Positions 25,349-30,330 of a DNA stretch of 30,330 bases are shown here, piece after piece. The notes beneath the pieces were generated by a model. It did no database searches. It was not told where the DNA came from and worked only from the letters and a program-made list of their open reading frames with translations. The translations under genes were made by a program, and so were the position numbers. This stretch comes from a virus: IMG/VR virus record IMGVR_UViG_3300030060_004722, positions 1 to 30,330 of that record; one strand, 5' to 3'. Numbering within the stretch: position 1 is the first letter of the stretch; the number at the start of each line of letters is the position of its first letter.

Positions 25349-25519
25349 TCAAATTACCATACCCCTTTCTTCTCTTAATATTTTTTTATAAGGACCATCA
25401 GGATACATTTCTCTAACCTGTTTTACTTCCTTAAGTTTATGATATAATCTAGCATCTCCTCCAAGTGCTAGTGCATTGACAATAGTTTCTAAATCTTTAT
25501 CGTCGATTGGTAAATCCAT
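25349..25519 (-). CDS. Conserved hypothetical between gp43 and uvsX, 56 aa
   Basis: It begins MDLPIDDKDLETIVNALALG and contains ARLYHKLKEVKQVREMYPDG. Its ATG overlaps the gp43 stop (TAATG). A protein of this kind at this location is familiar to me from cyanomyoviruses, which supports it as real. No function is known; the position suggests a replication accessory. Confidence 0.75.
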   Translation of the reverse strand: MDLPIDDKDLETIVNALALGGDARLYHKLKEVKQVREMYPDGPYKKILREERGMVI

Positions 25520-28014
25520 TAGGTAAAAAATAGTTCTAAGTTTACAGTCTTTTCAACATTCCATCCAATTGCGTCAAGGATTGCCTTGAGTGGTTCCACA
25601 AAACTTTTTTCAAACTGTAGATCGTAATCTACATACTTCTCAAGATCAAGTTCTTTGGGAAAGTCTTGGATGAAAGAAATAACATTCTCCTGTATGATAT
25701 TAGGTTTCTTAAGATAACAAAATTTGATCTTCTCACCATTTTGAATCAAAGAATACTTATTAGTAAGTTTCTTTTTATTCACATAGTGATTGAATAGTAA
25801 AGCACCACGACAATGTATTGGTGTGCCCTTCATGTATATTGTATTGTAAGAATAATACTTCTTCACATCAGAAACAGTTCTCGGAAAAGAGATATCTTCT
25901 GGAGGTAGGGATTTGAATTCTTTTCTTGACTTATCAATAAAGTCAATCACATCTTCCTCAGTTTCATTCATCATCAATTTCAAAGCATCCTTGATCATTT
26001 TACGACAGGGTGCAGGGGTCGAAGACTTTACAGCTTCGATTCCCATCATCTTCAGTTTTGGTTCCTCATATCTAACGCCTTCACTATCCCACACGTTTAA
26101 TATATATCTCTTTTTTGCTGTCCAGATACCACGATCAGCAATATTTTCACGTTTCATAACCATTTTATTCTCATAAGCATTCACGTATTTTGCCAACGTC
26201 TCATAAGAACTCTCAATATATTTTTCAAATTCCACCTCACACACCTTATTAAGGAACGAGCAAATGCTCGCACCATCCTTCTCTCTATCTTTGTATATGA
26301 CCTCCACCAAAGGACCAAGATTAAGGTAAATGGAATCAGTATCTGAAGCAATAACATAGTCAACCTCCTTTGTTTTAAGAATTTTATTGATGTGTGCATT
26401 CATTCGGTCTTCAATCCAACGGATTGAGACTTGTCCAGATAGTGTGATGGCTTCTGCGTTTGCAAGTTTGTAATAGCGAAAATATTGATTACCAATAGCA
26501 CCATAAGCAGAGTTAAGTTGGATCTTCCGTGCCATTTGGATATTATTGCACCTTGCGATCTCCTTCTCCAAAGTTTTGGTTTTAGTTTTTTCATACTGCT
26601 GCTTTGCCTCCAACATCTTTTTTTTGTATATGGTTCGATCCTTATAGATCTTCTCCATCAACTCTGGTAAGAAACCCCTTACATCTTTACGATATTGTGC
26701 ACCATTCGCACATACCGCATACTCACCATCTATACCAACTTCCTCTGATAAAATTTTATCAACGGAAACTGTTGGATGTCTGGCATCAACAAGTGTTTCA
26801 GGAGAAATATTATATTGCATAATAAGGTGTGGATATAGACTGTTAAGATCAAAAGATACCACCCAATCATACTTACCAGGTATTGGTTCTTTCACATATG
26901 CACCTGCATATTTTTCCATCTTATCAGACCTTTCTTTTGGTGGAATAACAATATTTCTTTTCTTAAGATAATTGTAGATAATTGTATCCCACATACGAAC
27001 CTGAGAGAATACATCTGCATAGTTTGCCTTAGCATCATAAGCCATAACAATTGCTAATTCAATCAACTTCATCTTATCTTCCAAACGGTCAACAAGTTCT
27101 ACGTCAATGATGTTATATTCAACAAACTTCTGCCATCCTTGAGTATAAAAATCTTTGAATGTATCAAACTCAGAGTGATCTAATTTCTTTTGTCCAAGTT
27201 CGACATTTGCAATATGATCTAAGCGATATGATTCCTGTGCTTTGTAAGTAAACTTCTTATACAAATTAAGATAATCAAGTTGAGTTACACCACCAACATC
27301 ATATGTAATATGCTTACGACCTGCGATCCAAATCTCATCTTCAGTTACAAGACCCCAAGGTGAAAATCTTTTCTTTAACTTCTCACCAAGAACACGATCA
27401 AGTCTACGAGTTAGATATGGAATATCATACAATTCTATATTCCAACCTGTGATAACTTCTGGTGTATTATCCTCTATCATCCACCAGTTTATAAAGTCAT
27501 TTAATAATTCATATTCACTATTAAAACCTTTGTATATAACATTCTCTTGCTTATTATTAAATCCACCTTGACCCCAAGTGCGAATCTGTTTTGTATTATA
27601 ATCTTGTATTGATATGAGTAGTATTTCTTCCGCAGCAGATTCCACATCAGGGAAACCATTCTCAGACTTCACCTCAATATCTAATGTAGTAATCTTGATC
27701 TTACTTACGTCAAACTTTATCTCTTCCTCTGGATACTTCTCAGAAATATATTGGTAGATATATCTATCATTACCATAGATTTTAAAGTTCTCAACCTCAC
27801 TATATTTTCTTATAAATTCACGACACTCTCTTACAGTGCCTGGATCTACTGATTCTACATAGTCACCTTCTAATGTCTTGTATTTTGTTTTTCTTTTGGA
27901 GGGAACAAAAAGGGTTGGATAAAACTTCTCACGAGTCATAAAGTGTTTACCATCTTCATAACCACGAACTAGAAAATTATCTCCAACCATTTGAACGTTG
28001 GTGTAAAATCTCAT
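25519..28014 (-). CDS. 43: DNA polymerase family B, T4 gp43-like
   Basis: 831 residues. The 3'-5' exonuclease residues are intact: Exo I TTLDIEVKSENG (Asp112, Glu114), Exo II GWNIELYDIPY (Asn192, Asp197) and Exo III NIIDVELV (Asp304). Polymerase motifs: A SFDLNSLYPHL (Asp389), B QLNSAYGAIGN (about 499-509) and C IASDTDSIY (Asp558, Asp560). It replicates the phage genome with the sliding clamp, clamp loader and gp32, none of which lies in this window. No intron or intein was seen. It is coupled by TAATG to the upstream Sm-like gene. Confidence 0.97.
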   Translation of the reverse strand: MRFYTNVQMVGDNFLVRGYEDGKHFMTREKFYPTLFVPSKRKTKYKTLEGDYVESVDPGTVRECREFIRKYSEVENFKIYGNDRYIYQYISEKYPEEEIKFDVSKIKITTLDIEVKSENGFPDVESAAEEILLISIQDYNTKQIRTWGQGGFNNKQENVIYKGFNSEYELLNDFINWWMIEDNTPEVITGWNIELYDIPYLTRRLDRVLGEKLKKRFSPWGLVTEDEIWIAGRKHITYDVGGVTQLDYLNLYKKFTYKAQESYRLDHIANVELGQKKLDHSEFDTFKDFYTQGWQKFVEYNIIDVELVDRLEDKMKLIELAIVMAYDAKANYADVFSQVRMWDTIIYNYLKKRNIVIPPKERSDKMEKYAGAYVKEPIPGKYDWVVSFDLNSLYPHLIMQYNISPETLVDARHPTVSVDKILSEEVGIDGEYAVCANGAQYRKDVRGFLPELMEKIYKDRTIYKKKMLEAKQQYEKTKTKTLEKEIARCNNIQMARKIQLNSAYGAIGNQYFRYYKLANAEAITLSGQVSIRWIEDRMNAHINKILKTKEVDYVIASDTDSIYLNLGPLVEVIYKDREKDGASICSFLNKVCEVEFEKYIESSYETLAKYVNAYENKMVMKRENIADRGIWTAKKRYILNVWDSEGVRYEEPKLKMMGIEAVKSSTPAPCRKMIKDALKLMMNETEEDVIDFIDKSRKEFKSLPPEDISFPRTVSDVKKYYSYNTIYMKGTPIHCRGALLFNHYVNKKKLTNKYSLIQNGEKIKFCYLKKPNIIQENVISFIQDFPKELDLEKYVDYDLQFEKSFVEPLKAILDAIGWNVEKTVNLELFFT

Positions 28015-28268
28015 TACTTAGTTAACTCAAGATACCTATTAATAACTGCCTTTGTAGGATCTGCCATCGTTAAAATATTATCTGATCTTATCAAAAGTTC
28101 CTTTTGGTCTGTTGCTTTTGGCCAAGGTTTCATATTATCAATACTTTCAAATAAGTATGGTTTTATGAGTTTACAATCGGGTTCACCTATATCTGCTCCA
28201 ACTTCTTCGACTTGACTGATAATAACATTATCAACATCAAGAAGCAAACACTTAATTACTTTGTCCAT
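28014..28268 (-). CDS. Sm-like small protein, second of pair, 84 aa
   Basis: It begins MDKVIKCLLLDVDNVIISQV and ends MADPTKAVINRYLELTK. The strand pattern and length resemble Sm/LSm folds, and it parallels the neighbouring 109-residue protein at both ends (K-LLL-...-VI, and NP/DP...I..Y). A Sm-like protein of suspected cyanophage origin has been crystallised, as I recall. Such folds can bind RNA, but this is not shown here. It overlaps the upstream gene by 17 bases and gp43 at TAATG. Confidence 0.7.
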   Translation of the reverse strand: MDKVIKCLLLDVDNVIISQVEEVGADIGEPDCKLIKPYLFESIDNMKPWPKATDQKELLIRSDNILTMADPTKAVINRYLELTK

Positions 28269-28581
28269 CTATTTTCTCCTGATACATTTTTACAATAGAG
28301 TCTATTGGATTTACTATAGTTATAACCCATTCTTTTGGAATCGTCATCACTTTATCTTCAGTCAAAAGTATCCAAGGAGCAAGTGTAATCTCTACATTAC
28401 TTTGATCATTAACATCTTCAGTTAAAACCATTGGTCTATTTACCGATACTTTATGTGGTTGAGTTAAAAGATACCCATATACCTTGTCCATAAGATGATA
28501 GTCACCTTCTTTGCGAACTAACTCTTTTGCCTCAGCAATAACTTGATCTCCAGATTTTAATAACAATAACTTAATAGACAT
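28252..28581 (-). CDS. Sm-like small protein, first of pair, 109 aa
   Basis: It begins MSIKLLLLKSGDQVIAEAKE, has GYLLTQPHKVSVNR and LAPWILLTEDKVMTIPKEWV, and ends in an Asn-Pro-anchored helix (NPIDSIVKMYQ). Beta-strand pattern and size suggest a Sm/LSm-type fold; it is a likely paralogue of the next gene. It is the first gene after the sigma-70 promoter and the structured leader, so it may be an early protein, and Sm-like proteins often act on RNA. No clear Shine-Dalgarno precedes the ATG. Confidence 0.7.
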   Translation of the reverse strand: MSIKLLLLKSGDQVIAEAKELVRKEGDYHLMDKVYGYLLTQPHKVSVNRPMVLTEDVNDQSNVEITLAPWILLTEDKVMTIPKEWVITIVNPIDSIVKMYQEKIDGQSN

Positions 28582-28668
28582 TTTTCATATTTAATTTAGT
28601 GGTAGATTCCTATAGCCGCTTATGCTGAACCCACCAAAGGGCATAACCGCAGCCAGTATTTCTCTGAC
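28582..28668 (-). ncRNA. Candidate pseudoknot leader RNA (cis-regulatory)
   Basis: The 87-base leader between the predicted transcript start and the first Sm-like gene can form stem 1, UUAUGC (28646-28641) with GCAUAA (28625-28620), and stem 2, UGGUGG (28636-28631) with CUACCA (28605-28600). Stem 2's 5' strand lies in the loop of stem 1, making an H-type pseudoknot. One G-U pair exists only on the minus-strand RNA. A GC-rich segment (GGCUGCGG and AGCGGC) may extend stem 1 with bulges. A ligand or family cannot be assigned. Confidence 0.45.
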
Positions 28669-28674
28669 GATTAT

Positions 28675-28703
28675 ATTATAGCACAACTTCTCCAATTGTC
28701 CAA
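28675..28703 (-). promoter_or_regulatory. Sigma-70-type promoter TTGGAC-17-TATAAT
   Basis: On the minus strand TTGGAC (28703-28698), a 17-base spacer (28697-28681) and TATAAT (28680-28675). It lies in the last codons of purM and directs leftward transcription of the Sm-like, gp43, uvsX, gp41 and mazG genes. The start would be near 28668. It is the best host-type promoter in the window. Confidence 0.75.
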
Positions 28704-30130: not shown

Positions 30131-30330
30131 TCAATTCATTAAACCATGAGGAATAATAAAGTAACCATCTGCCCGACTCATAGAGTTGCATCTTAGGTTA
30201 AAGGAGGGAGGTTGGGTTCCTGTATACCAACAAGTAACGGGCATTACTACAGTAAGTAAATACGTTACAGCCTGAGACCCGATTGGTTGATCGGTTCTAC
30301 CCTTGCGAGCAGCAGCACCACCTGTGTCTC
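30131..30330 (-). CDS. C-terminal end of an unidentified gene (partial)
   Basis: An open minus-strand frame enters from the right edge and ends at TGA 30133-30131, giving 65 residues. The visible parts are GGAAARKGRTDQPIGSQAV, then VMPVTCWYTG and NSMSRADGYFIIPHGLMN. The tail has the feel of a compact beta-rich domain. I cannot identify it; too little is present. Confidence 0.65.
   Translation of the reverse strand, partial: DTGGAAARKGRTDQPIGSQAVTYLLTVVMPVTCWYTGTQPPSFNLRCNSMSRADGYFIIPHGLMN

Follow-up and report, generated by a model that had tools for sequence, protein, structure and literature searches.

To our knowledge, phage-encoded functional RNAs are rare, with put, the phi29 pRNA, and the T4 stable RNAs as examples. 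The put RNA of HK022 binds the zinc-binding domain of the RNA polymerase (RNAP) β′ subunit and suppresses termination. In T4, the stable RNAs of the tRNA cluster, species 1 and 2, are phage encoded, tied to the tRNA operon, and of unknown function, while the gene 32 leader carries a pseudoknot close to the 5′ terminus of a T4-type early mRNA. The manA RNA (RF01745) is a known cyanophage cis-element; together with wcaG (RF01761), it belongs to the structured RNAs of marine T4-like cyanophages that emerged from comparative genomics, and both are described in putative 5′ UTRs of genes with related functions. The HK022 elements putL and putR are structured, phage-encoded, and ~70 nt long and act as RNA; putL lies directly after a strong early promoter, and its action on RNAP requires no protein factors (PMC9378689). 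In type III toxin-antitoxin systems, the protein-bound pseudoknot RNA ToxI is encoded as a tandem repeat array that is followed by the toxin gene (PMC12373285).

Here, we analyzed a 30,330-nt stretch of viral DNA (IMG/VR record IMGVR_UViG_3300030060_004722, positions 1 to 30,330; the window) and found that positions 28668-28600 of its minus strand encode a member of a structured RNA family specific to phages. The RNA consists of a 5′-terminal hairpin (P0), a linker, and an H-type pseudoknot with the stems P1 and P2. Members of the family have a P1 of 6 bp, a P2 of 8 to 10 bp, conserved loops, and a sigma-70-type promoter of their own upstream. Like the put RNAs, the element directly follows a sigma-70 promoter and is about 70 nt long (69 nt from the predicted +1 in the window). 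Put RNAs consist of two stem-loops and head defined early operons, whereas the element combines the P0 hairpin with a covarying H-type pseudoknot and heads varied units; the two are compared here by description. Both manA and wcaG RNAs occur near the element in some loci, but in contrast to these RNAs, it precedes unrelated genes and tRNAs and starts from +1. T4 species 1 and 2 resemble it, by description alone, as phage RNAs associated with a tRNA operon. The gene 32 leader is likewise similar by description; gp32 was found downstream of the element at three loci by inspection, but most copies do not lie before gp32. Unlike ToxI, the element is a single unit in 329 of the 330 loci fetched, and no toxin gene was seen in the downstream ORF census. 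The features of the window that bear on the element are as follows.

28698..28703 (-): -35 hexamer TTGGAC within the purM 3′ end; the adjacent register reads TGGACA (sequence and promoter scan)
28675..28680 (-): -10 hexamer TATAAT, extended by a preceding TG (promoter scan)
28668..28668 (-): predicted transcription start, first G of P0 (from the fixed 6-nt -10 spacing in relatives)
28652..28668 (-): P0, 5′-terminal hairpin GUCAG-agaaaua-CUGGC, 28668-28664 pairing with 28656-28652 (comparison of relatives)
28647..28651 (-): almost invariant linker UGCGG, with a pair between G 28648 and C 28618 (covariation)
28641..28646 (-): P1 5′ strand UUAUGC, partner 28625-28620 (6 of 6 pairs vary, 5 on both sides)
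28637..28640 (-): loop 1, CCUU, conserved (comparison of relatives)
28627..28636 (-): P2 5′ strand UGGUGGGUUC, partner 28609-28600 (covariation)
28620..28625 (-): P1 3′ strand GCAUAA (covariation)
28610..28619 (-): loop 3, GCGGCUAUAG, nearly invariant and mostly unpaired (comparison of relatives)
28600..28609 (-): P2 3′ strand GAAUCUACCA; conservation of sequence stops about here (BLAST and covariation)
28582..28599 (-): AU-rich spacer, no clear Shine-Dalgarno sequence (sequence)
28252..28581 (-): gene for an Sm-like protein (Pfam DUF6561), first ORF after the element (Pfam, profile, and fold)
28014..28268 (-): second DUF6561 protein, adjacent to the first and before gp43 (Pfam)
25519..28014 (-): gp43-type family B DNA polymerase (Pfam)

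A first-pass annotation of this sequence had proposed a promoter in the end of purM, a non-coding leader able to form a pseudoknot, and a function as RNA on the minus strand. The promoter is present at 28703-28675 (-), with a 17-nt spacer between TTGGAC and TATAAT, and was the top-scoring (11/12) of 29 sigma-70-like sites in a scan of the region that overall yielded no more sites than shuffled sequences. The predicted leader, 28668-28582 (-), has exactly the 87 nt proposed, its start agreeing with the -10 spacing in relatives, and no Shine-Dalgarno sequence is visible in it before the ATG of the first gene at 28581, as had also been noted. The label of this gene as Sm-like was borne out by Pfam DUF6561 and by a match of its product to PDB 3by7 in both a profile search (E = 6e-9) and a fold comparison (E = 1.7e-5). 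Farther upstream, a manA RNA (120.5 bits) was located at 30201-30330 (-), upstream of hsp20 and cut by the window end.

When folded alone, the window leader was unremarkable (z = -1.5). This single-sequence result is uninformative because the nested-structure program used cannot model pseudoknots, and comparison with relatives therefore had to decide. BLAST revealed copies that are 89 to 90% identical to the element in the window; they lie in P-SSM2, P-SSM5, and two phage contigs from single cells. Further copies were collected by pattern scans of IMG/VR, each of which fixes certain positions by construction, and by BLAST with divergent copies, giving at least 331 copies in at least 330 phage loci fetched. 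In an alignment of 61 distinct sequences (A3; P2 counted as 9 bp), 99.5% of the cells form standard pairs, 10 of 16 pairs are altered on both sides, and 89 cells are double changed, compared to 18.6 ± 4.0 in shuffles (reached in 0 of 500) and at most 22 when the partner strand was slid. A second alignment of 66 sequences (A5; P2 counted as 8 bp) came mostly from one low-constraint scan, whose pattern fixed only the closing G in P1 and left most of P2 free. Here, 100% of the cells form standard pairs, 11 of 15 pairs are altered on both sides, and 124 cells are double changed (0 of 500 shuffles). The counts of double-changed cells in both alignments are inflated by shared ancestry; nonetheless, many pair types recur, and P1 position 8/30 in A3, for instance, takes AU, CG, UA, GC, GU, and UG. 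Compensatory changes in relatives, which the first-pass annotation had named as its own test, are thus found in both alignments, and this covariation is decisive for the fold being real. G-U pairs are also frequent in the stems of the relatives; read from the opposite strand, they would become A-C mismatches, so the assignment to the minus strand is right.

With regard to the individual helices, P1 was predicted exactly (28646-28641/28625-28620). The pairing of P2 was likewise correct, but the stem comprises 10 bp (28636-28627/28609-28600) instead of the 6 bp given, and the third helix, P0 (28668-28664/28656-28652), had been missed. Among the 331 listed copies, 195 have a P2 of 10 bp with a 4-nt loop 1 and 127 a P2 of 9 bp with a 3-nt loop 1; that loop 1 loses a nucleotide when P2 loses a pair is expected of a real H-type pseudoknot. 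An extra pair below P1 covaries as well (UGCGG..GCGGC, UGCUG..GAGGC, and UGCUC..GGGGC). Loop 3, which contains GAUAG in 193, UAUAG in 128, GACAG in 9, and GAAAG in 1 of the 331 listed copies, is likely a recognition surface. Invariant unpaired nucleotides within a conserved leader structure, as seen here, are also what is expected of riboswitches and other cis-acting leaders.

Among the matches listed, 222 of 231 unique upstream regions harbor a P0-type hairpin of at least 4 bp directly before UGC. These 222 unique relatives have 51 different P0 stems, and nearly all of these read GU...AC or GU...GC. In 194 of the 222 listed, exactly 6 nt separate the -10 hexamer from the first G of P0, a spacing that played no part in choosing P0, and the -35 hexamer matches TTGACA at 5 or 6 of 6 positions in 179. 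As would be expected of an autonomous small RNA gene, nearly all unique copies have a predicted consensus promoter of their own; the predicted first nucleotide is almost always paired within P0. In three loci (L389, L425, and L433), the stem closing at +1 pairs across 119 to 227 nt and also forms in the structure predicted by folding; another (L337) has a 54-nt version of P0. From these sequences, we infer that the RNA is probably defined from its first transcribed nucleotide. In L389 (7142-7660), L425, and L433, the element is embedded in an extended noncoding region that is itself conserved. This region comprises an enlarged P0 domain and, behind the pseudoknot, ~250 nt of conserved sequence, and no notable ORF, tRNA, or Rfam match was found in it. 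In L194, L152, L175, and L280, P0 is apparently swapped for a ~60-nt hairpin with the ends GUUGA...UCAGC or UCAAC.

We further examined what surrounds the element. An intrinsic terminator precedes the -10 hexamer in 52 of 222 unique upstreams, often with the -35 hexamer in its loop. Several loci (L013, L040, L060, L067, and others) show a combined terminator-promoter of the type GGGATC-TTGAC-GATCCC-TTTTTTT, with the -35 TTGAC in the loop. Downstream, the first census gave 25 ORF clusters, some of them spurious ORFs over tRNAs. In ~100 fetched loci of this census, a DUF6561 Sm-like gene begins ~17 nt after P2 without a Shine-Dalgarno sequence; these Sm-like proteins differ by up to ~75%, while the loops and linker of the RNA are nearly invariant. 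In P-SSM2, the copy (89% identical) lies between hsp20 and a T4-GC171 gene and not before the Sm-like genes of this phage. Other downstream genes, named by inspecting translations except in the window and P-SSM2, include T4-GC171, purM, purH, pstS-like, peptide deformylase, methyltransferase, small membrane proteins, and others. Functionally related downstream genes, as are typical of riboswitches and cis-acting leaders, were not found in the contexts censused.

In 78 unique contexts, the element is followed by a tRNA gene, tRNA-Arg(UCU) in 59 and tRNA-Pro(UGG) in 19, beginning 2 to 7 nt after the pseudoknot (3 to 4 nt after P2 in 69 of the 78). In a further type of context, which includes the isolate S-SKS1, the element with or without tRNA-Pro precedes a 73-amino-acid ORF; 21 of 23 unique contexts have a separate near-consensus promoter of the type TTGACT-17-TATAAT between element and ORF, and in the remaining two a -35 hexamer overlaps the end of P2. 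In S-B43 (L293, 2550-3530), ~1 kb of unannotated sequence directly after the element contains six tRNA genes and a manA RNA. The element is single copy in 22 of 23 searched records carrying it, among them six isolate genomes (P-SSM2, S-SKS1, ACG-2014f, S-B43, SynMITS9220M01, and S-SCSM2R). The exception is a 24-kb contig (G411, L364) with two copies; a tRNA-Arg cluster follows one of them and tRNA-Pro the other, and 1.2 kb lie between the two.

Searches against Rfam 15 revealed no family at the gathering threshold over the window element or its divergent copies, and in permissive mode only sub-threshold chance matches occurred. The scan for manA, wcaG, glnA, and other cyanophage motifs that had been suggested earlier thus found no match; CFrI, PhotoRC-II, wcaG, manA, and glnA are different elements or did not match, and neither did abiF RNA, a candidate because of its reported occurrence in cyanophage S-CREM1. 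The family was also not found in the literature searched (open-licence PMC papers); it is new to Rfam and previously undescribed. GTDB contigs contained no exact pattern match, and 400 genomes of the host family Cyanobiaceae contained no credible copy. A host homologue was rejected: five weak covariance matches in Cyanobiaceae genomes align with P1 and loop 3 only, without the P2 part, and one of these, upon inspection, lies apparently antisense in a coding gene. The genomes of P-SSM7, Syn33, Syn9, S-PM2, P-SSM4, and P-HM2 yielded noise only and no recognisable copy. Complementarity to the rRNA of Synechococcus WH7803 was not above that of shuffles.

Several explanations for the function of the element were weighed. 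Our analysis suggests as the strongest rival a put-like action on the transcribing polymerase, by which the nascent 5′ RNA would fold on leaving RNAP, stay on it, and let it pass pause sites and terminators throughout the long following unit. The element RNA, like putL, begins at the predicted start, and the downstream content, mRNA or tRNA, would be irrelevant to such an activity. We nevertheless regard it as rather doubtful: put consists of two stem-loops and not of a hairpin and a pseudoknot, phages with many operons usually hold one copy, and in S-SKS1-type units the next promoter comes only tens of nucleotides later, which would leave little to antiterminate. Less probable still is a 5′ stability cap, with P0 pairing the 5′ triphosphate end and the pseudoknot blocking RNase E/J so that phage mRNAs and tRNA precursors last. 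Such a cap would suit mRNA and tRNA units alike, agrees with the pairing of the predicted first nucleotide, and is in line with a report that cyanophages increase the expression of host RNase E (PMC9692554). However, a plain hairpin would be enough, leaving the invariant UGCGG, CCUU, and GCGGCKAUAG unexplained; only one transcript per genome would be protected, and in tRNA units RNase P would take the cap off.

The first-pass annotation had raised control in cis, that is, translational control or a riboswitch of the Sm-like/polymerase operon, possibly through binding of the Sm-like product or the polymerase. The ~100 loci with a closely following DUF6561 gene that lacks a Shine-Dalgarno sequence fit this, as do the RNA binding suggested by the Sm-like fold and the three loci with gp32. 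As a general function, it is not supported: against it stand the P-SSM2 copy, the unrelated downstream genes without a common pathway, and the tRNA contexts, in which there is nothing to translate. Since no translated sequence directly follows the element in these tRNA contexts and the other genes are unrelated, switching the next gene at the level of translation or in response to a metabolite cannot be its sole role, and we consider cis control quite unlikely. The Sm-like protein may bind the element, but simple cis control by such binding cannot account for P-SSM2 and the tRNA contexts. That the RNA primes or marks a phage replication origin is highly improbable: the element is usually present once per genome, and the detrended GC-skew minimum of P-SSM2 lies at it, but the minimum lies elsewhere in ACG-2014f and S-SKS1 (one of three genomes fits), and none of the three shows a skew sign change at the element.

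As the best explanation, held tentatively and with close to even confidence, we propose that the element is an RNA gene of the phage and that its product, made up of P0 and the H-type pseudoknot, acts as RNA, is probably protein bound, and rides on varied transcripts. A bolder reading, held slightly less firmly, sees in it a new class of trans-acting RNA gene of large cyanophages: a promoter-RNA cassette, usually single copy, would be moved between unrelated loci, and the hairpin-capped pseudoknot RNA, once released from tRNA or mRNA precursors, would target a host or phage protein during infection. The RNA-gene reading is supported by the exceptional covariation, by loops and a linker that stay invariant before divergent Sm-like proteins, and by the unrelated downstream genes. 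The usual single copy, the insulating terminators upstream, the promoter following in S-SKS1-type units, and the longer noncoding region in one lineage argue that the RNA itself is the product. The product would work as RNA, probably in trans, as a ligand of a host or phage protein. The cassette would be placed first in a tRNA or mRNA unit, and what follows it would be largely incidental. Before a tRNA, RNase P would free the RNA, leaving the pseudoknot plus a few nucleotides, almost exactly P0-P1-P2; before an mRNA, an endonuclease cut in the AU-rich spacer might do so. In mRNA contexts, no terminator directly ending the RNA was seen, which speaks against this reading and leaves a separate short RNA putative. 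The two copies in G411, each heading its own tRNA unit, also suit a cis role, and the 5′-terminal location equally suits action on the RNA's own transcript or on the transcribing polymerase.

Taken together, the element represents a well-supported family of structured RNAs that Rfam lacks and that is carried by abundant ocean viruses. The precise predicted start, the very clear fold, and the isolate phages carrying the element make its function directly testable. Should host RNA polymerase, RNases, or ribosomes prove to be the target of the RNA, this would constitute an RNA-based form of host takeover in marine cyanobacteria.
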